Assembly (NCBI RefSeq): GCF_041429775.1
Contig: NZ_CP163421.1
Span: 868,001-932,000, forward strand
DNA length: 64,000 nt
Reading direction: 5' to 3'
Origin: Glycocaulis abyssi
Lineage (GTDB): Bacteria > Pseudomonadota > Alphaproteobacteria > Caulobacterales > Maricaulaceae
The notes below the pieces were generated by a model. That model did not search any database. It worked only from the letters and a program-made list of their open reading frames with translations, and was not told the origin of the DNA. Below, one piece after another: positions 8,637 through 17,520 of the stretch (the stretch's first letter is position 1; each line of letters begins with the position of its first letter). The position numbers were made by a program, and so were the translations under genes.

Positions 8637-8682
8637 GGGCGGTCTGTCTTTCCTTGTCAGGTGCAGCGCGATCAGATTTCGC

Positions 8683-8712
8683 TGATCCGCGCCCCGGTTG
8701 GCCTCGTAATAG
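8683..8712 (+). promoter_or_regulatory. ECF-sigma-like promoter (TGATCC-N18-TAATAG) of the photolyase operon
   Basis: TGATCC at 8683-8688, an 18-base spacer, then TAATAG at 8707-8712, about 46 bases before the GTG start of the photolyase gene. The same layout with the same spacer recurs upstream of the facing operon at 17440-17469. It resembles, from memory, the TGATCC...TA promoters of the RpoE/ChrR singlet-oxygen regulon of Rhodobacter. Inferred from sequence only. Confidence 0.55.
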
Positions 8713-8758
8713 CTGACATAGGTATTCCCGTCATCCTTGCACTGCGGCTTTCATTATC

Positions 8759-10213
8759 GTGTCCACCTCAACTCATTCTGCTGGTTCTCCCGTCATCTGC
8801 TGGTTCCGCCAGGACTTGCGACGGGCCGACAATCCGGCCCTGCTGGCGGCGGCGAACTCCGGCGCGCCGGTGATCTGCCTTTACGTGCTCGATGACCAGA
8901 CGCCCGGCAAATGGGCCAGAGGCGGTGCGTCGCGCTGGTGGCTGCACCACAGCCTTGCCGCGCTTGATACCAGCCTGCAACGCCTTGGAGCACGCCTGAT
9001 CCTGCGCCGGGGCGATGCCTATGAGGTGGTGACGGGCCTGGCTAAAGAGCTGAACGCGCAAGCCGTGTTCTGGAACCGGTGCTACGAGCCCTTTGCCCGC
9101 CAGCGCGATGCCCGGATCAAGAACGATCTGAAAGACAGCGGCACTGCGGTGGAGACGTTCAACGCCTCCCTGCTTGTTGAGCCGTGGCATGTAACGACAA
9201 AGGATGGCGGGCCCTACCGCGTCTACTCGCCCTATTTCCGGGCGCTGGCCCCGCATTGTGACGATATCGCCCCCCTGCCTGCGCCTAGCTCCGTCACCGA
9301 CGGTTCGCAGGGCGTGCATTCCGACGCCCTTTCCAGCTGGTCTTTGTTGCCGTCCTCACCAGATTGGGCGACAGGGTTCAGCCCCGTCTGGACACCCGGC
9401 GAGGACGGCGCGCGGGCGAGGCTCGAAACCTTCTGCGAGGATGCGGCGCGCGACTATGCCGACACGCGCAACCTGCCGGGCACAGAAGGCACGTCGCGCC
9501 TGTCACCGCATTTGCATTTCGGTGAAATCTCCCCCCGACAGATCTGGCATCATGCTGTCAGCCACGTCCCGGCCGGAAAAGGCCGTGAGACCTTTCTGAA
9601 GGAGATCGGCTGGCGGGAGTTCTCCTACAATCTACTCTATCACTTCGATGACCTGCCTGAATCCAATTACCAGACTAAGTTCAATGACTTTCCGTGGAAT
9701 TGTGATGAAGCGGTTTTCCAAAAGTGGACGCGCGGACAGACTGGCTATCCGATCGTAGATGCGGGCATGCGCCAGCTCTGGCAGACGGGCTGGATGCACA
9801 ACCGGGTCCGCATGATCGTCGCCTCCTTTCTGACCAAACATCTCCTGATCGACTGGCGCCGGGGCGAGGAATGGTTCTGGGACACTCTGGTGGACGCAGA
9901 CCTCGCCAATAACGCCGCCAGCTGGCAGTGGGTCGCCGGATCAGGCGCGGACGCCGCGCCCTATTTCCGCATCTTCAATCCTGTCACGCAGGGCGAAAAG
10001 TTTGACGAATCCGGCAGCTATGTCCGCGAATGGGTGCCGGAGCTGGCGAAGCTGCCAGACAAATATATCCACACGCCATGGACGGCTCCGGCCGATATTC
10101 TGGGGCGCGCCGGAATAACGCTTGGCCGTGACTACCCCAGACCGATAGTGGACCACACCATGGCGCGCGAACGCGCACTGGCCGCCTTCTCCAGCCTCAA
10201 GGATGCCGCATGA
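8759..10213 (+). CDS. phr: Cryptochrome/photolyase family protein, class I CPD deoxyribodipyrimidine photo-lyase
   Basis: A 484-residue flavoprotein that repairs UV-induced cyclobutane pyrimidine dimers with light. The N-terminal Rossmann antenna domain starts VICWFRQDLRRADNPAL; the C-terminal FAD domain shows TSRLSPHLHFGEISPRQ, the WREFSYNLLY helix and the strongly conserved block MHNRVRMIVASFLTK followed by NNAASWQWVAGSG. The start is GTG at 8759; the protein then begins a few residues before the antenna domain, as in the family. It heads a four-gene operon and overlaps the next gene by ATGA. Promoter-like TGATCC...TAATAG lies just upstream. A cryptochrome role without repair cannot be excluded by eye. 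Confidence 0.92.
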   Translation: MSTSTHSAGSPVICWFRQDLRRADNPALLAAANSGAPVICLYVLDDQTPGKWARGGASRWWLHHSLAALDTSLQRLGARLILRRGDAYEVVTGLAKELNAQAVFWNRCYEPFARQRDARIKNDLKDSGTAVETFNASLLVEPWHVTTKDGGPYRVYSPYFRALAPHCDDIAPLPAPSSVTDGSQGVHSDALSSWSLLPSSPDWATGFSPVWTPGEDGARARLETFCEDAARDYADTRNLPGTEGTSRLSPHLHFGEISPRQIWHHAVSHVPAGKGRETFLKEIGWREFSYNLLYHFDDLPESNYQTKFNDFPWNCDEAVFQKWTRGQTGYPIVDAGMRQLWQTGWMHNRVRMIVASFLTKHLLIDWRRGEEWFWDTLVDADLANNAASWQWVAGSGADAAPYFRIFNPVTQGEKFDESGSYVREWVPELAKLPDKYIHTPWTAPADILGRAGITLGRDYPRPIVDHTMARERALAAFSSLKDAA

Positions 10214-11580
10214 GCTCAATCGACCCGATATTGAACCGGCCTGCACGCATTGCGGTGATTGGTGGCGGTGTGGCTGGTCTGGGTGCGGCCTGGGCGCTGC
10301 GCGGCCTGCATCAGGTCGTGCTCTACGAGAAGGATAGCCGTCTTGGCGGCCACGCCAACACCGTGCATGTCGATCACGCCGGACAGGAAACGCCGGTCGA
10401 TACCGGCTTCATCGTGTTCAACCGGCTCAACTACCCCAATCTGACCGCGCTGTTTGCCCATCTGGGCATTGAAACACACCGCACCGACATGAGCTTCGGG
10501 TTCAGCCTGGGCGGACGGTGTGAATGGTCCTCCAACGGGCTTGGCGGCCTCTTCGCCCAGCCCTCCAACCTGCTGCGCCCCTCCTTCATCGGCATGCTGC
10601 GCGATGTCTTGCGCTTCAACGCGCAGGCCGTGCGTGACCTTGAAGGCGGTGTGCTCACGGGGCTGTCTCTCGGCCAGTATCTCGATCTGTACGAGTTCGG
10701 TACCGCCTTCCGGGAACAATACCTCCTGCCCATGGGCGCGGCGATCTGGTCGGCCAGTGAAAGCGACATGGCCGCCTACCCGGCCGAAGCCTTTGTGCGG
10801 TTTTTCAGGAACCACCGTCTGGTCAACGCGAAACGTCCCAAATGGGAAACCGTCGCCGGGGGCAGCCAGACCTATGTCAACGCGCTGTGGCGCGACATGG
10901 AGGCGTCCGGCGTGCAGCGCCGCTCCGGCGCGGTCAGCGTCACCCGGCTGCGTACCGGCGGGGTCCGGATTGTGGACGCGGATGGCCATGCAGAACGCTA
11001 CGACGAGGTGATCCTGGCCTGCCACTCCAATGAAGCGCTGGCGCTACTCACCGATGCGGACGCTGACGAACGCGAAATGCTGGGCGCGATCCCCTACGCG
11101 CCCAACGTGGCGGTGCTCCACCGCGATGAGAGTTTTCTGCCCCGCCGCAAGGGCGCGCGGGCGGCTTGGTGCTATATGCGCGATGATAATACCGGCGCTG
11201 CTGCAGTAACTTACGACATGAACCGTCTGCAACACATCAATCCGGAACAGCCCATGCTGGTGACGCTGAACCCGTCGCGTGAGCCCGACCCGGCCAAAGT
11301 GCTGGGGCGCTATCACTACGACCACCCGCAATTCACACCCGCCGGTCTGGCGGCGCAGCGCATCTTCAATCGGGTGCAGGGCGTGCGCCATACCTGGTTT
11401 GCCGGCGCGTGGCTGGGCTATGGCTTTCACGAGGACGGGCTGCGCTCCGGCCTGCGCGTGGCCTTGCGCCTTGGCGGCGCGATTCCGTGGGCATTTGCCG
11501 ATGGCGACGTAAATGGCGGAGAATGGGGTGAGCGGCCGGGCATCGCCCTGCCAGATGTTCACGCCCTGCCCGCGGAGTGA
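10210..11580 (+). CDS. FAD-dependent oxidoreductase (amine-oxidase-like, cfa/DUF1365-associated)
   Basis: A 456-residue flavoprotein with an N-terminal dinucleotide-binding GGGVAG at residues 18-23, the acidic end of strand 2 (YEKDSRLGGHANT) and a C-terminal FAD loop (WLGYGFHEDGLRSG). It belongs to the predicted NAD/FAD-binding group that is regularly found with DUF1365 and cyclopropane-fatty-acid-synthase-like genes; that neighbourhood is exactly what follows here. By context it may act on membrane phospholipid acyl chains, perhaps as a desaturase-type enzyme like the one proposed for furan fatty acid synthesis in Rhodobacter; this is inference. The start overlaps the photolyase stop and its own stop overlaps the DUF1365 start. 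Confidence 0.85.
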   Translation: MSSIDPILNRPARIAVIGGGVAGLGAAWALRGLHQVVLYEKDSRLGGHANTVHVDHAGQETPVDTGFIVFNRLNYPNLTALFAHLGIETHRTDMSFGFSLGGRCEWSSNGLGGLFAQPSNLLRPSFIGMLRDVLRFNAQAVRDLEGGVLTGLSLGQYLDLYEFGTAFREQYLLPMGAAIWSASESDMAAYPAEAFVRFFRNHRLVNAKRPKWETVAGGSQTYVNALWRDMEASGVQRRSGAVSVTRLRTGGVRIVDADGHAERYDEVILACHSNEALALLTDADADEREMLGAIPYAPNVAVLHRDESFLPRRKGARAAWCYMRDDNTGAAAVTYDMNRLQHINPEQPMLVTLNPSREPDPAKVLGRYHYDHPQFTPAGLAAQRIFNRVQGVRHTWFAGAWLGYGFHEDGLRSGLRVALRLGGAIPWAFADGDVNGGEWGERPGIALPDVHALPAE

Positions 11581-12371
11581 TGATGACGCCGCCTGCCCGG
11601 CTTTTCCTCGGACATACCGTACACGAACGCACCCAGCCTTTCGTGCATCGCTTCCGCTATGCCATCGCCATGATGATGCTGGACCTCGACCAGCTGGAGG
11701 CAGCGGGCCGCCAGTCACGCCTGTTCTCGGTCGAACGCTTCAACCTGTTCAGCTTCCGCCAGCGCGACCACGGCCCACGGGACGGCACATCGCTCAAAGA
11801 GTGGGCGCTGGCCCGGCTTGCTGCGGCGGGCGTCGATACTGCCGTGTCGCGCGTCCGGCTATTATGCTCGCCGCGCGTGCTGGGCTATGTCTTCAACCCG
11901 ATTTCGCTCTATCTGGCTGACGATGCGGACGGAAACACGCTCGCGGTGATCTATCAGGTCCACAACACGTTCGGCGACGCCCACGCCTATGTCGCGCCCC
12001 TGGCGGGCAGCTGGCCGGCGAAACACAGCGCGCAGAAGCGTTTCCACGTTTCGCCCTTCTTCCCGGTATCAGGGCGCTATGACTTCACCTTGCGCGATGG
12101 CGATGACCAGCTTTCGCTCGTGATCCACAAGGCCGGGGACGCAGGCAAGGATTTCCTCGCAACCATGCAGCTACAGGCGCGAACCGTGTCCTCGCGAAGC
12201 TTGCTCAAGCTCTTCGTATTGCAGCCTTTTTCGACCTTGAAGACCATCTCCGCCATCCACTGGGAGGCGGTGCGGCTTTTCCTCAAGGGCGCGCGCTATC
12301 ACCGCCGTCCCCAGCCTCCGGCCGACGATACGATTATCGAGCAGCCGGATGCATCCAGGCGGACAGTTTGA
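11580..12371 (+). CDS. DUF1365 family protein
   Basis: A protein of about 263 residues with DUF1365 hallmarks: LFLGHTVHERTQPFVHRFRY near the N-terminus, then VLGYVFNPISLYL and the VHNTFGD segment, and a FHVSPFFPVSGRYDF block. The biochemical function is not known; the gene is nearly always beside an FAD oxidoreductase and a cyclopropane-synthase-like methyltransferase, as here, so a part in phospholipid acyl-chain modification is likely. The first ATG at 11580 shares bases with the upstream TGA; a GTG three bases earlier and an ATG three bases later are alternatives. Translation is probably coupled to the upstream gene. Confidence 0.88.
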   Translation: MMTPPARLFLGHTVHERTQPFVHRFRYAIAMMMLDLDQLEAAGRQSRLFSVERFNLFSFRQRDHGPRDGTSLKEWALARLAAAGVDTAVSRVRLLCSPRVLGYVFNPISLYLADDADGNTLAVIYQVHNTFGDAHAYVAPLAGSWPAKHSAQKRFHVSPFFPVSGRYDFTLRDGDDQLSLVIHKAGDAGKDFLATMQLQARTVSSRSLLKLFVLQPFSTLKTISAIHWEAVRLFLKGARYHRRPQPPADDTIIEQPDASRRTV

Positions 12372-12428
12372 GCGTAATCACTAAAAGGCGTAGAATTGGA
12401 CCGGCAGTCAGCCGGAAGGTATCTCCGA

Positions 12429-13679
12429 ATGACCGATGCAACACTTTCCAGTTTTGACCCTTCGCGTCCGCTTCAGGCTTGCCGGGACACGATTGCCCGC
12501 CTGCAGGGCGTGCCGCGCCTGTTCAAGGCGGGCCTTACCCTGCTTTTGAAGTTTGGCACTGGATCCCTGACCGTCGTGCTGCCTGATGGCCGTAGCCTGC
12601 GCTTTCAGGGCAAGGAGCCGGGCGCCGATGCGGTGATGGAGGTGCGCGATTACGCCATGGTCCGCCGCGTGTTCGCAGGCGGTGATGTCGGCTTTGCCGA
12701 ATCCTACATGGCGGGCCAGTGGACAACACCCAATCTTGCAGCAGTGCTGGAAGTATTTTCCGCAAACCTCGATAAAATCAACAATATCGAGAAGGGTGGC
12801 CCCCTCACCCGTATGGCGCACTGGGTCTGGCACCGCCTGCGTGCCAACACCAAGGCGCAGGCCCGCAAGAATATCGAGGCACACTACGATCTCGGCAATG
12901 CCTTCTATGAGCTGTGGCTCGACCCGTCCATGACCTATTCGGCTGCGCGCTTTACCGCGCCGGATCTCGGGCTGGAGGCCGCACAGAAGGAAAAATACGC
13001 CAGCCTTGCCCGGCTGATCGGGTTGAAGCCCGGCATGCACGTGCTGGAGATTGGCTGCGGCTGGGGCGGGTTCGCCGAATACGCGGCTGGCGAAATCGGC
13101 GCGACGGTTACATGCCTTACCCTGTCGCCTTCCCAGCGCGAATATGCCCTTGAACGCATGGAGCGCGCGGGTCTGTCAGACAGGGTGGAGATCAAGCTGC
13201 AGGACTATCGAGACGAGACCGGCAGCTATGATGCCGTCGCCTCCATCGAGATGTTCGAGGCCGTGGGCGAGGAATACTGGCCGTCCTACTTCGCCAAGGT
13301 GCGCGAGTGCCTGAAACCCGGTGGCAAGGCCGGCCTGCAGATCATCACGATCCGCGATGATCTGTTTGACAGCTATCGCAAGCGCGCGGACTTCATCCAG
13401 CGCTACATCTTCCCCGGCGGCATATTGCCAAGCGTGGAACGGCTGAATGGCGAGTTCGCCAAGGCCGAGTTGACTTCCGTTACGACCGAGATGTTCGGCG
13501 TGGACTATGCCGACACGCTGGCCCACTGGATGGAACGCTTTCAGGCTGCCTGGCCGCAGATCGAGCCGATGGGCTTTGATTTGCGCTTCCGGCGCATGTG
13601 GGAGTTTTATCTGGCCTATTGCGAGGCGGGCTTCCGCACCGGCCGCATCGATGTCGGCCAGTTCGTGCTGGAGCGCTAA
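12429..13679 (+). CDS. Cyclopropane-fatty-acyl-phospholipid synthase family SAM methyltransferase
   Basis: A 416-residue S-adenosylmethionine-dependent enzyme of the Cfa family, which modifies double bonds of membrane phospholipid acyl chains. Seen are AHYDLGNAFYELWLD at 151-165, the SAM-binding glycine motif LEIGCGWGG at 206-214, SIEMFEAVGEEYW, and YIFPGGILPS near the C-terminus. ATG 12429 is preferred over an upstream in-frame TTG because GGAAGG lies nine bases before it. It is the last gene of the photolyase operon and meets the convergent SDR gene end to end. Whether it makes cyclopropane rings or methylated/unsaturated products cannot be told from sequence alone. Confidence 0.9.
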   Translation: MTDATLSSFDPSRPLQACRDTIARLQGVPRLFKAGLTLLLKFGTGSLTVVLPDGRSLRFQGKEPGADAVMEVRDYAMVRRVFAGGDVGFAESYMAGQWTTPNLAAVLEVFSANLDKINNIEKGGPLTRMAHWVWHRLRANTKAQARKNIEAHYDLGNAFYELWLDPSMTYSAARFTAPDLGLEAAQKEKYASLARLIGLKPGMHVLEIGCGWGGFAEYAAGEIGATVTCLTLSPSQREYALERMERAGLSDRVEIKLQDYRDETGSYDAVASIEMFEAVGEEYWPSYFAKVRECLKPGGKAGLQIITIRDDLFDSYRKRADFIQRYIFPGGILPSVERLNGEFAKAELTSVTTEMFGVDYADTLAHWMERFQAAWPQIEPMGFDLRFRRMWEFYLAYCEAGFRTGRIDVGQFVLER

Positions 13680-14467
13680 TTCGCCGGCTTGTCCCAGCCG
13701 GTCTGTTTTCTTACTAGTCCCAGCGACCAGCCATAGGGCAGCGCGTAGATGGCTTTCAGCGCCCAGGTGAAGCGGCGCGGGAAGGTGATCTCGAACCGCT
13801 TGCTCCTCAGGCCCGATGCGATGCGCTTTGCCGCCGTCTCCGCACTGACCATGAAGGGTTTGGGGAAGGCATTGTCGTCCTGCGCGGGCGTCTCGACAAA
13901 GCCCGGCGTGATGACCTGACACAGCACGCCATAGCGGTGCAGCTCGATGCGCAGGCACGCCGCCATGTTCACCAGGGCCGCCTTGCTGGCTCCATAGGCC
14001 GACGAGGTCGGCATGCCGCCGAAGGATGTCGCCGAGGACACAATCGCGATCTGACCCGTCCTGCGCGCGCTCATGCGCGGGGTCAGCGCGCACAGGCACG
14101 CCGCCGTGCCCGACAAATTCACGTCAAATGTCTTCTTGTAGTCTTCAAAGGACGGGTTTTCGGCATTGATCGAGAGGTAGATGCCCGCATTCAGGACAGC
14201 GAGCCCAATCGGCCCGTGCGCTGCTTCAATGGCCTTCACAGCGTCTTCCACGCCCTTGGCATCGGTCAGATCGACCGCGTGCGCGATGATATGGCCCTTG
14301 CCGGAATGCCCCGCAGCGATCGTCTCCAGCTTGTCCGCGCTTCTGGCGGAAATCACGACCGTCCAGCCCTGGCCAGCCAGACGCTTCGCCAGCGCCGCCC
14401 CAATGCCTGAACTGCCGCCTGTTACCCAGGCAACACCGTCTGACGGTTTCATGGCGCGCGGTGTCAT
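13676..14467 (-). CDS. SDR family NAD(P)-dependent oxidoreductase
   Basis: A 263-residue classical short-chain dehydrogenase/reductase. The coenzyme motif TGGSSGIG is at 16-23, NAG at 93-95, the catalytic serine in the SSATS segment (144-148) and YGASK gives Tyr158 and Lys162. The C-terminal part (WALKAIYALPYGWSLGLVRK) looks membrane-associating, as in SDRs acting on lipids. It is the last gene of the minus-strand operon, its ATG overlapping the photolyase stop (ATGA). SDRs are common members of the cfa/DUF1365/photolyase neighbourhood, so a lipid substrate is plausible but unproven. Its stop overlaps the stop of the facing methyltransferase gene. Confidence 0.88.
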   Translation of the reverse strand: MTPRAMKPSDGVAWVTGGSSGIGAALAKRLAGQGWTVVISARSADKLETIAAGHSGKGHIIAHAVDLTDAKGVEDAVKAIEAAHGPIGLAVLNAGIYLSINAENPSFEDYKKTFDVNLSGTAACLCALTPRMSARRTGQIAIVSSATSFGGMPTSSAYGASKAALVNMAACLRIELHRYGVLCQVITPGFVETPAQDDNAFPKPFMVSAETAAKRIASGLRSKRFEITFPRRFTWALKAIYALPYGWSLGLVRKQTGWDKPAN

Positions 14468-16014
14468 GAGGCTTTCCTTTGTGTCCGGGCGATGCCGATG
14501 GATTCAAAAAAGCGGTTGGCGTCGCCGCGTATTGCCTCGCGGCGAGCGTCGCTGAACCGATTGAGGTTTGAAAGGATGGGTCCGAGGCGGCGATTGCCCT
14601 TCAGCCTCGCCTCATTCTCCAGCATGAAGTTCCAGTAGAGATAGTTGAACGGGCAGGCTTTTTCGCCGGACTTGGCTTTCACGTCATAGCGGCACTTGCT
14701 GCAATGATCGCTCATCCGGTCGATATAGGCGCCGCTCGCCGCATAGGGCTTGGTCGCCATGACGCCGCCATCGGCATAGAGCGCCATGCCGTGCGTGTTG
14801 GGCGCTTCCACCCACTCATAGGCATCGGCATAGACGGCCAGATACCATTCATTGACGGCCCTGGGATCAATACCGGCCAGAAGCGCGAAATTACCGGTCA
14901 CCATAAGGCGCTGGATATGGTGGGCGTAGGCGTGCTTGCGCGTGGTGTTCACCACATCGGCGATGCAGGCCATGTCCGTTTCGGCGGTCCAGTAAAACTC
15001 CGGCAAGGGCCGGTGCGCGTTCAGCGCATTGCGCTCCAGATATTCCGGCATTAAGTGCCAGTAGATGCCGCGCACATATTCGCGCCAGCCAATTATCTGC
15101 CGGATGAAACCCTCAACCGCGTTCAGCGGCGCCTTGCCGTCCTGCCAGGCCCTCTCCGCCTTGCGGCAGACTTCCATCGGGTCCAGCAGGCCGCAATTGA
15201 GGTAGAGCGACAGGACGGAGTGGAAGAGGAACGTTTCGCCGTCTTTGAGCGCGTCCTGATAATCACCGAAATCCGGCAAGGCGTTCTCGATGAACCAGCC
15301 CAGCTGTTCCAGCGCGCCTTCGCGCGTTTCCGCATAGCCAAAGGGCTCGATATCGCCGAACCCGTCCGGGAAACGCTCTTCGACCAGCGCCATGACATCC
15401 CGCGTTATCGCATCAGGTTCGACCCATGCGCGGCGCGGCAGTCTGATGTCCGCCGGCAGTGCCTTGCGGTTCTCCGCATCATAATTCCACTGGCCGCCTT
15501 CAGGCTCGTCCCCATCCATCAGCAGGCCGGTCTCCCGGCGCATCTCGCGGTAGAAATACTCCATGGTCAGGCGTTGCTTGCCGCTGGCCCAGCGGGCGAA
15601 GCGCTCATGCGAGCAGATGAAGCGGTCGTCGGCGCGCATCTCGACAGGCACATCGAACCTGTCCGGCCATTCGCGCATGATCTCCATCAGCCGGTACTCA
15701 CCCGGCTCAGTGTGCACGATACGCTGCAGGCCCGCCTCATCGGCCAGGGCGCGCGCCACCTCGCCTTCAAGGCTGTGGGCGTTGCCGGGATCATCGAGGC
15801 GCACATAGCGCACCCTCAGCCCCTCCTCTCGAAGGCTGTGCGCGAAATGGCGCATGGCGGAGAACAGGAAGGCGATTTTCTTGCGATGATGCGGGATGTA
15901 TGACGCCTCGTCATTGACCTCGGCCATCAGGATCAGGTCGTCAGGCTGGACGCCCCGCAAGGCAGACAGCTCGCGCGTCAGCTGATCGCCAAGGACAAGC
16001 CGCAGGGTGCGCAT
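14464..16014 (-). CDS. phrB: FeS-cluster photolyase/cryptochrome (FeS-BCP, prokaryotic (6-4) photolyase type)
   Basis: A 516-residue member of the bacterial iron-sulfur cryptochrome/photolyase group, which repairs (6-4) photoproducts. The N-terminus reads LRLVLGDQLTRELSAL, typical of the group (DUF523-like photolyase-related antenna domain). The four cluster cysteines are at 350, 438, 441 and 454, the same numbering I recall for the Agrobacterium PhrB [4Fe-4S] ligands, which also supports the start at ATG 16014 rather than the 21-residue upstream extension. That ATG overlaps the DUF6134 stop (TGATG). With the class I photolyase on the facing operon, the locus covers both main UV lesions. Confidence 0.92.
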   Translation of the reverse strand: MRTLRLVLGDQLTRELSALRGVQPDDLILMAEVNDEASYIPHHRKKIAFLFSAMRHFAHSLREEGLRVRYVRLDDPGNAHSLEGEVARALADEAGLQRIVHTEPGEYRLMEIMREWPDRFDVPVEMRADDRFICSHERFARWASGKQRLTMEYFYREMRRETGLLMDGDEPEGGQWNYDAENRKALPADIRLPRRAWVEPDAITRDVMALVEERFPDGFGDIEPFGYAETREGALEQLGWFIENALPDFGDYQDALKDGETFLFHSVLSLYLNCGLLDPMEVCRKAERAWQDGKAPLNAVEGFIRQIIGWREYVRGIYWHLMPEYLERNALNAHRPLPEFYWTAETDMACIADVVNTTRKHAYAHHIQRLMVTGNFALLAGIDPRAVNEWYLAVYADAYEWVEAPNTHGMALYADGGVMATKPYAASGAYIDRMSDHCSKCRYDVKAKSGEKACPFNYLYWNFMLENEARLKGNRRLGPILSNLNRFSDARREAIRGDANRFFESIGIARTQRKAS

Positions 16015-16694
16015 CAGGCAGCCGGATTGGCCTGCCGGACATAGCGGATGCGTTGGCCGCGCGCCTCGAACTCGCACCCCGCCCAGAAGCCGTTCTCATC
16101 ATACCAGAGATCGACGGTGAGCGTGCCTTCCAGCCGGATGCGGCGGGCCTGAATGGTGCCGCCATCGGCCTCGATCTGCTCCATTCCCATATCGGTGATG
16201 GTTACCTCCATCGCATCGCCATGCTCGGTATTGAGAATCCGGCGCAGATCTTCTTCATATCCACGCCAGTGCGAGGACGGGATGATGTCGCGCGGCAGTT
16301 CCTCGGTATGGCGTTCGCCCTCGGGAAGGACACCTTCGCTCACGATGCCGGAGCCATTGCGCGCCGCTGCAACCGGGAAGCGGTCGCCATCTTTAAGGGT
16401 CTCGCCCTCCAGCGTCACCAACTGCCCGCCCCGCCAGCGCTCTACCGAGTCGTGCTCGTAGCGGAACACGGTCAGCGGGCCGACACCGGCGCGTAGACGC
16501 ACTGAAATTTCGGCGGTCAGCTCCTCGCCGCTACGCGAGAACCGGACCTCGTGCGTACCGAAACTGGAATTACCGCGATAAACATTGAACTGGATCGTCT
16601 CACCGCCCCGCGGATCGGCGGGAATGGCGCCATGCGCCAAAGGCGCTGCGACGGCCAGCACCATGACACTGGCAAGAATGGCTAGCGGTTTCAT
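16014..16694 (-). CDS. DUF6134 family exported protein
   Basis: A 226-residue protein with an N-terminal signal peptide (about residues 1-22, cleavage after a HGA-like site) and a beta-rich body starting IQFNVYRGNSSFGTHEVRF, the pattern of DUF6134. The FRYEHDSVERW segment is also typical. It is predicted periplasmic, of unknown function; related proteins occur beside cfa, photolyase and SDR genes. It is second in the minus-strand operon, 49 bases after the ChrR-like gene and overlapping the FeS photolyase start. A lipid-binding or envelope role would fit the company it keeps, but nothing in the sequence proves it. Confidence 0.75.
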   Translation of the reverse strand: MKPLAILASVMVLAVAAPLAHGAIPADPRGGETIQFNVYRGNSSFGTHEVRFSRSGEELTAEISVRLRAGVGPLTVFRYEHDSVERWRGGQLVTLEGETLKDGDRFPVAAARNGSGIVSEGVLPEGERHTEELPRDIIPSSHWRGYEEDLRRILNTEHGDAMEVTITDMGMEQIEADGGTIQARRIRLEGTLTVDLWYDENGFWAGCEFEARGQRIRYVRQANPAA

Positions 16695-16743
16695 CAGGCA
16701 TACTCCCGGATTCTGAAAAAGCGCACGTCCACGGCCCGGCCGA

Positions 16744-17424
16744 TCAGTTCAGGCGGCGCAAGGGGCGTACAATCCGGTCTATCAAGCCATAGAGCGGATT
16801 GACCGGCTTCCATTCTCCCATGCTCACTGTCAGGCATATGCAGGCCACATTGCCCTGCACGGCTGGACGGTGGCGCATGCCAGGTGCCGCGCTGCAAAGA
16901 TCACCTGCCCGGTACAACGCGTGACCATCGTGAAAAGCTCCCGTCAGAACGAGGGTCAGCTCCTCGCCGCCATGATCGTGAGGCGGGATGCCGCCACCAG
17001 GCTTGAGAAGGACCAGGCTGGCTTCGGCCGTCTCGTCACTGACGGCGTCCAGGACAATTTCCTGCACGCCCCCAAGGCGGCGCGACCAGTTCAGCCCGCC
17101 ACTGGCCGAGCGTTCGATATAGGGGCTCAAGGCCCGTGGAAGGCCGGTGGAGGGATCAAGGGCCTGATCGTCGTCCGGTGCAGCCAACACCGGCTCTTCA
17201 GCGCGCGTCAGCACCGCGTCGAGGGCATTGGCAGGCATGGACGCAGGATGAAGGCTGGCCAGCAGTCCGCCAAAGCCCGTTTCCGCGGCGCGGACATAAG
17301 TGCTGGCTTGAGGGTTCAGCTCCGCCTGACATTCCGCCAGAAGGCGTATGGCGGCGGGGCCTGTACCAGCGGCATAATCGAACAGATGCGCGTCTTCTCT
17401 GGCAGGCACGGGGCAAAGCTCCAT
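16744..17424 (-). CDS. ChrR-like cupin protein with a degenerate anti-sigma zinc site
   Basis: A 226-residue ChrR-type protein. In Rhodobacter, ChrR binds RpoE through an N-terminal zinc domain and has a C-terminal cupin that senses singlet oxygen. Here the cupin keeps its metal set: HDHGGEE (His149, His151, Glu154/155) and His185. The N-terminal half starts like ChrR (LFDYAAGTGPAAIRLL) but the usual H-x3-C-x2-C is replaced: the C-P-x-C stretch reads NPQA (37-40), leaving one nearby Cys32. No sigma gene is adjacent. It heads the minus-strand operon behind a TGATCC...TATAGA element. It may be a sensor that no longer binds zinc, or may not be an anti-sigma factor at all. Confidence 0.75.
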   Translation of the reverse strand: MELCPVPAREDAHLFDYAAGTGPAAIRLLAECQAELNPQASTYVRAAETGFGGLLASLHPASMPANALDAVLTRAEEPVLAAPDDDQALDPSTGLPRALSPYIERSASGGLNWSRRLGGVQEIVLDAVSDETAEASLVLLKPGGGIPPHDHGGEELTLVLTGAFHDGHALYRAGDLCSAAPGMRHRPAVQGNVACICLTVSMGEWKPVNPLYGLIDRIVRPLRRLN

Positions 17425-17439
17425 CTGGTGTTTCGGAAA

Positions 17440-17469
17440 TCTATACGCGGTGGACCCTTGACCGGATCA
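17440..17469 (-). promoter_or_regulatory. ECF-sigma-like promoter (TGATCC-N18-TATAGA) of the ChrR-like operon
   Basis: On the minus strand TGATCC (17469-17464), an 18-base spacer and TATAGA (17445-17440) lie 15 bases before the ATG of the ChrR-like gene, implying a very short leader. Sequence and spacing match the element before the facing photolyase operon. The plus-strand complement contains TTGACC (17459-17464), which could serve the divergent cysK. Confidence 0.55.
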
Positions 17470-17520
17470 GCCAGACCGCTAGCCAGAACGCAGACATCTG
17501 ATTTTCAAAGAGGCCAAGCC

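Follow-up and report, generated by a model that had tools for sequence, protein, structure and literature searches.

A predicted RpoE/ChrR-type photo-oxidative regulon in Glycocaulis abyssi, with an orphan ChrR paralogue as its possible inducible brake

Two convergent operons and their genes

The stretch of DNA analysed in this work (the window) comprises 64,000 nucleotides (nt) from the 3.05 Mb genome of Glycocaulis abyssi (genome G000; contig NZ_CP163421.1, positions 868,001 to 932,000), which belongs to a genus placed in the family Maricaulaceae, order Caulobacterales (PMC11559359). The window contains a block of two four-gene operons which, as judged from comparative sequence analysis, probably constitutes the core of a photo-oxidative regulon of the RpoE/ChrR (ECF11) type, in which a ChrR paralogue (referred to here as ChrR2) may act as a brake. 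The two operons are on opposite strands and they converge, with their stop codons overlapping by 4 nt (the CFA-like gene ends at 13679 on the plus strand and that for a short-chain dehydrogenase (SDR) at 13676 on the minus strand), which confirms the tail-to-tail arrangement of eight genes at 13676-13679 described in the initial annotation of this DNA.

The plus-strand operon, which follows a predicted ECF11-type promoter (8683..8712, with TGATCC at 8683-8688 and CGTA at 8705-8708), begins with phrA (8759..10213), encoding a class I photolyase of the cyclobutane pyrimidine dimer (CPD) type (PF03441, PF00875; best solved-structure match 4u63, E 5e-174). It is followed by the genes for a UfaD-like, flavin adenine dinucleotide (FAD)-dependent protein of the amine-oxidase/desaturase type (10210..11580; PF01593), a UfaO-like DUF1365 protein (11577..12371; PF07103, E 2e-75) and a UfaM-like S-adenosylmethionine (SAM) methyltransferase of the CFA/CMAS family (12396..13679; PF02353). 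The minus-strand operon, behind a second predicted promoter of this type (17440..17469, with TGATCC at 17469-17464 and CGTA at 17447-17444), is headed by the gene for ChrR2 (16744..17409), an orphan paralogue of ChrR consisting of a zinc-less anti-sigma-like domain and a cupin domain. Its start may be the GTG at 17409, with GGAG at 17422-17419, the alternative being a longer open reading frame from the ATG at 17424. The genes that follow encode a DUF6134 protein (16014..16694; PF19630), which is probably secreted, a photolyase of the FeS-BCP/(6-4) type (DPRP; 14464..16014; PF04244; 4dja PhrB, E 9e-188) and, in the last position, the SDR (13676..14467; PF00106). The FeS photolyase probably starts with the ATG at 16014, which has one base in common with the DUF6134 stop codon. 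Residues 5-511 of its 518 residues match 4dja, and almost the entire FeS enzyme is covered by its matches to PhrB, (6-4) photolyase and CryB. Since the FeS enzyme matches PhrB/CryB and the phrA product matches class I enzymes, the earlier proposal that the block repairs both types of ultraviolet (UV) lesion is reasonable by homology.

The enzymes UfaD (an FAD desaturase), UfaO (DUF1365) and UfaM (a SAM methylase) make methylated furan fatty acids, and in Rhodopseudomonas palustris their genes (RPA2571-2569) are numbered in the order D-O-M (PMC7380195). The three Ufa-type genes in the window match this set in their domains and their order, a likeness at the level of gene type. They differ from the R. 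palustris genes in that phrA precedes them in the same operon, and their product is here predicted from the genes. Further, the UfaM-like methyltransferase scores below the cut-offs of all four NCBIfam cyclopropane/mycolic synthase models that it matched. These scores, together with the D-O-M gene set, make a furan fatty acid product the more probable one. Thus, of the initial suggestion that the block remodels membrane lipids, the inclusion of lipid genes in the regulon stands, whereas a cyclopropane product is less likely.

A strict promoter element and its conservation

In Rhodobacter, the promoter recognized by RpoE is of the TGATCC type. The two promoter sequences reported initially for the block, viz. 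TGATCC-N18-TAATAG on the plus strand (TAATAG at 8707-8712) and TGATCC-N18-TATAGA on the minus strand (TATAGA at 17445-17440), are both exact, and they have the same spacer length. However, the motif as first written is weak. The pattern TGATCC-N17-19-TA is observed 10 times in the window versus 2.6 times expected from shuffled sequences, and 134 times in the genome; because 93 of these 134 matches have the N17 or N19 spacer, the 41 with N18 represent no excess, and this pattern was rejected as a means of finding the regulon. Due to this weakness, the corresponding loci from relatives were compared, based on a search for ChrR-type proteins in 137 genomes of the family, of which 28 contained a ChrR2-type match. 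The comparison revealed that both promoters share, in addition to the spacer, an invariant CGTA in the -10 position, leading to the element TGATCC-N16-CGTA (hereafter the strict element or strict site). It is found in only 7 copies in the G. abyssi genome and in 4 to 14 copies per genome in 19 genomes, whereas the reversed pattern, which served as control, has only 0 to 3. Hence, in the genome scan that had been suggested, the broader motif proved to be common but the strict one rare.

The strict site is present upstream of ChrR2 in 27 of the 28 loci (19 + 1 + 8 from three separate locus sets), with L085 having TGATCT instead, and upstream of phrA in 15 of the 16 loci for which this region was available (including L129 and L137). 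Two loci cut by the end of the available sequence (L077 and L082) are excluded from the latter count, although the genome of L082 has a strict site near the expected phrA start. If these sites were merely chance matches in upstream regions, then the 41 genomic occurrences of TGATCC-N18-TA, with no excess over the N17 and N19 spacers, are what one might anticipate. However, the exact spacer and the CGTA are retained across genera whose ChrR2 proteins are only 32-45% identical, and TGATCC-N18-TA was not found in the 150 nt upstream of any of the control genes from the same loci (kdsA 0/14, cysK 0/16, SDR 0/17 and CFA 0/16; 0/63). In the light of this comparison a chance origin of the sites is very unlikely, indeed scarcely credible. 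The stretch that separates the phrA promoter from the GTG start codon (8716-8758) is also strongly conserved within the genus (GTCATC..TTGCACTGCGGC), and as it is not coding in frame it is possibly a regulatory leader.

The sigma factor and the wider regulon

The initial annotation had surmised that the sigma factor for the two operons is encoded elsewhere, and the examination of the genome for one of the ECF11 type led to an RpoE-like gene at C1:2160728, located ~1.28 Mb from the block and followed by the gene for a second ChrR (ChrR1). The best solved-structure match of this sigma factor is RpoE from R. sphaeroides (4e-40; next match 5e-26), and ChrR1, with 132.9 bits, scores above the cut-off of 124.5 for the NCBIfam model TIGR02451. 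The two proteins appear to form an RpoE-ChrR pair of the R. sphaeroides (ECF11) type, with the ECF11 label resting on the best structure match. A second ChrR-type match is found in 27 of the 28 genomes containing ChrR2 (the exception being G027, which is 69% complete), and in all 13 genomes in which this second locus was inspected it is adjoined by the RpoE gene.

No strict site was found within 300 nt upstream of rpoE in any of the 13 ChrR2-bearing genomes (of 28) that were tested, nor in the genome G080. A weight matrix based on 32 sites gave scores of -7.2 to 4.6 upstream of rpoE in 14 inner genomes, with nothing above the background, for which random 330-nt windows gave a median of -0.9 and a 95th percentile of 7.6. 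This region contains conserved TTTCAAGGC and TTAAGGTGCA-like stretches (L002 690-790; relatives L047-L051), as a putative control region of rpoE itself. The lack of the motif before rpoE, together with the presence of 13 sigma-70 region-2 matches in the genome, could be taken to indicate that another alternative sigma factor, and not the RpoE-like one, reads both promoters. However, outgroups carry the motif before rpoE-chrR itself and the targets equal the known targets of RpoE, and it is quite improbable that a different sigma factor is responsible.

The evidence regarding the targets comes from the annotation of all strict sites in the G. abyssi genome and of 20 stretches containing such sites from six other genomes (G081, G094, G026, G082, G097 and G010). 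In addition to the two sites in the block, G. abyssi contains a strict site 43 nt before the start of an rpoH gene of the sigma-32 type, 97 nt before the gene for a secreted protein with a fasciclin domain, and before a structured small-RNA-like gene. The sites before rpoH and the fasciclin gene are also present in the congeners G008, G009 and G011, and that before the RNA in these three and G012. Two other sites were judged weak, viz. 2302322-, located inside rpoH on the other strand, and 1303337-, which is ambiguous as it lies at the end of a cytochrome b561 gene followed by YceI; because the latter site codes for the b561 C-terminus, its conservation may be at the protein level. Among the 20 stretches, 5 have the strict site before phrA, fasciclin or rpoH genes (all three in G094, only rpoH in G026 and only the fasciclin gene in G097), 6 have it before or near recurrent small proteins, and 9 are chance-like or unclear. 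The small proteins, grouped by eye, are of two kinds, both of the membrane type and of ~100-140 amino acids, behind strict promoters in G081, G082, G010 and G026 (L154, L163, L165, L168; L150, L164), which are possible further members of the regulon.

The presence of strict sites before rpoH, the fasciclin gene and a conserved RNA therefore points to the known RpoE regulon. The RpoE targets tabulated for R. sphaeroides include rpoE, chrR, phrA, cfaS (RSP_2144, ufaM), RSP_1091/1090 (ufaD/ufaO), an SDR, rpoHII and a fasciclin gene (PMC7074977), and the two systems share, besides the sigma factor and ChrR homologues, the targets phrA, ufaM/cfaS, ufaD, ufaO, SDR, rpoH and fasciclin, an overlap which is too specific to be accidental. 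However, the two systems also differ, in that rpoE-chrR is here outside of its own regulon and an orphan ChrR2 is inside it. Further, cryB is a target of RpoHII in R. sphaeroides, whereas the FeS photolyase is here directly behind the promoter. In the rpoE-chrR locus of R. capsulatus the FeS photolyase/cryptochrome gene cryB is similarly found next to ECF11 regulation (PMC7074977), but there it is adjoined by the sigma pair and here only by a ChrR paralogue. The block was initially viewed as a compact regulon; the inference of one ECF-type regulon, whose promoter precedes known types of RpoE targets, holds, but the block is only a part of it.

The small-RNA-like gene mentioned above is a candidate for a small RNA of ~100 nt, with two stem-loops whose loops are rich in C (L119:2165-2035 on the minus strand; G000 C1:2239534-2239664; homologues L139-L149). 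It is present in 23 of the 137 family genomes and showed no match to an Rfam family at gathering scores. In the 12 loci inspected, the strict promoter precedes it in 5/5 from the window's genus and 0/7 from other genera, and the consensus fold from 12 sequences shows double changes in 5 of 20 pairs, with 8 of 240 cells broken.

ChrR2, a ChrR paralogue without an adjoining sigma factor

In none of the 28 loci was an RpoE-like gene detected beside ChrR2, within flanks of 1.5 kb in 8 loci and longer flanks in the other 20. In a tree of ChrR proteins the 19 ChrR2 rows form one clade (100/99), and these, together with 14 inner ChrR1 and 9 outer rows, make up the alignment of 42 proteins considered here, in which the zinc and cupin ligands are numbered as in PMC6852236. 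Of these 42 proteins, 41 have neither of the zinc cysteines C35 and C38, L066 being the only one with both, and H31 is retained in 4/19 ChrR2, 3/14 inner ChrR1 and 5/9 outer rows. In the ChrR2 from the window these three positions are occupied by Q, N and A, and thus it fails the zinc-binding anti-sigma (ZAS) motif H/C-X24/25-H-X3-C-X2-C (PMC6432622). Hence, the initial identification of a ChrR-like gene heading the operon is correct, but this gene is an orphan with no adjoining sigma gene, and its product lacks the zinc cysteines of the anti-sigma domain. The cupin ligands H141, H143, E147 and H177 are retained in all 42 proteins (19/19 ChrR2). Specific to ChrR2 are the N-terminal helix residues D16, A18, G20, P23, A25 and L29, present in at least 85% of the rows, and in 16 of 19 a cysteine adjoins the H31 position. 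The existence of an anti-sigma helical bundle that functions in the absence of zinc is known from the class I anti-sigma factors RseA and RskA (PMC7406223, PMC6852236). These are not known to carry a ChrR-type cupin, and the proteins described here differ from them, and from R. sphaeroides ChrR, as members of the ChrR family that lack the zinc cysteines. Judged by title and abstract, no orphan or zinc-less ChrR was present among the matches listed in the open PMC literature; however, ~28% of soluble anti-sigma domains are zinc-less according to PMC7406223 and the novelty of the zinc-less character is therefore lowered.

Arrangement of the loci in relatives and its history

In most of the ChrR2 loci with long flanks, the gene order is kdsA, phrA, ufaD, ufaO, ufaM, SDR, FeS photolyase, DUF6134, ChrR2 and cysK. 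The phrA-ufa operon is not at this locus in L075, L080 and L081, with the genome of the last (G094) having phrA and its promoter elsewhere, and the photolyase genes of L084, L085 and L137 have no detected SDR neighbour. The DUF6134 gene sits right after ChrR2, or in G080 right after the promoter itself, and is therefore a steady, uncharacterised member of the regulon. In the outgroup loci L060, L061, L066 and L086, rpoE-chrR is divergent to the ufa genes and a strict site is found on both sides, and in L044 the stretch separating the RpoE gene from the FAD gene likewise has two strict sites. Within the stretches examined of the outer loci L062 to L065 and L083, neither a strict site nor a ufa gene was found. 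Just one of the sampled ChrR proteins retains both zinc cysteines. Its gene is found in G136 (locus L136, 12871-15486), within a cluster where strict promoters form two divergent pairs, and this cluster likely pictures the older layout. The simplest history consistent with these sequences would be a departure of the sigma operon from the cluster, with loss of its autoregulation, while a copy of ChrR either remained in, or moved into, the first position of a target operon. Which of the copies moved is left undecided by the tree, because its long outer branches meet.

Possible role of ChrR2 and significance of the proposed rewiring

Based on the promoter and its targets, it is highly probable that the block belongs to an RpoE/ChrR-type regulon. 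That ChrR2 acts in it as an inducible second anti-sigma factor, giving negative feedback, we regard as the likeliest of its roles, though in itself an evenly balanced proposition. According to the explanation proposed, the release of RpoE from ChrR1 would be triggered, as it is in Rhodobacter, by singlet oxygen or an organic peroxide, and both operons would then fire together from their TGATCC-N16-CGTA promoters. ChrR2 would next accumulate and re-capture RpoE by means of the conserved helices at its N-terminus. In this manner, a self-amplifying switch with the sigma factor in its own regulon would have been turned into one with an independent supply of sigma factor and a delayed negative feedback.

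Several observations weigh against parts of this explanation. ChrR from R. sphaeroides requires its zinc ligands to bind the sigma factor (PMC6852236), and ChrR2 is without these ligands. With 105.4 bits it is below the TIGR02451 cut-off, and the AlphaFold prediction for it (sequences from the window, L045 and L046) has a predicted local distance difference test (pLDDT) score of 33 and a predicted template modelling (pTM) score of 0.18. The ratio of nonsynonymous to synonymous changes (dN/dS), compared in three genomes, is 0.19-0.30 for ChrR2, which indicates purifying selection; however, its evolution is faster than that of RpoE (0.05-0.07), ChrR1 (0.12-0.19) and all seven other genes in the block (0.04-0.16). 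Further, L078 lacks the phrA promoter, and G003 has most of the block but lacks ChrR2, phrA and any strict site, so that the regulon is not universal. In G080, the block and both promoters are retained, but DUF6134 takes the leading place and ChrR2 was not detected; ChrR2 is therefore not essential to the module. As the ChrR1 of G080 groups among the inner ChrR1 proteins (at an open fork in the tree), a loss of ChrR2 is the likelier reading in this case.

The loss of the zinc cysteines, the lack of an adjoining sigma gene, the faster evolution and the retention of the cupin metal ligands in 19/19 ChrR2 would also be accounted for if, within the same regulon, ChrR2 no longer touches the sigma factor and is a cupin-domain sensor or enzyme, e.g. 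one acting on oxidised lipids or peroxides, with a vestigial helical N-terminus. However, the mean pairwise identity of the N-terminal domain among ChrR2 proteins (0.47) is nearly that of the cupin (0.54), and ChrR1, which adjoins the sigma gene, is likewise without the zinc cysteines, so that the loss of these residues alone need not mean the loss of binding. We consider a role for the cupin alone to be doubtful, though it merits serious consideration. Another conceivable role for a paralogue that is predicted to be induced, and whose divergent anti-sigma-like domain has its own signature (D16, P23 and A25) unlike ChrR1, is that it antagonises ChrR1, either in a mixed dimer or as a competitor for the turnover machinery, and prolongs the response; this is unlikely.

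Returning to ChrR2 as an inducible brake, we tentatively suggest, with somewhat less confidence than for the brake itself, that in this branch of Maricaulaceae the ECF11 circuit has been inverted, with the sigma operon outside of the regulon and deprived of positive autoregulation, and a zinc-less ChrR2 serving as the brake, and that photo-oxidative stress is sensed without the zinc-thiolate switch that has been proposed for ChrR. The latter part of this suggestion is made because the zinc cysteines are missing from ChrR1 as well as from ChrR2, whereas the cupin site is retained and so are the genes for furan fatty acids. In R. sphaeroides, genes of the latter type are also required for ChrR turnover (PMC6852236). 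The finding is ordinary as a regulon and new in its wiring. For Glycocaulis and its relatives, the element TGATCC-N16-CGTA provides a promoter definition and a predicted regulon. Further, whether ChrR senses singlet oxygen via its zinc site or its cupin is a debated question (PMC6852236, PMC6432622), and a lineage in which the zinc cysteines are missing from 41 of 42 sampled ChrR proteins, but which has the cupin ligands, the furan genes and the promoters, would, if these bacteria respond to singlet oxygen, represent a natural knock-out for it. The outgroups showing the older arrangement, and G080 without ChrR2, make this family a readable case of how an autoregulated sigma switch may have been rewired to an inducible orphan anti-sigma factor.

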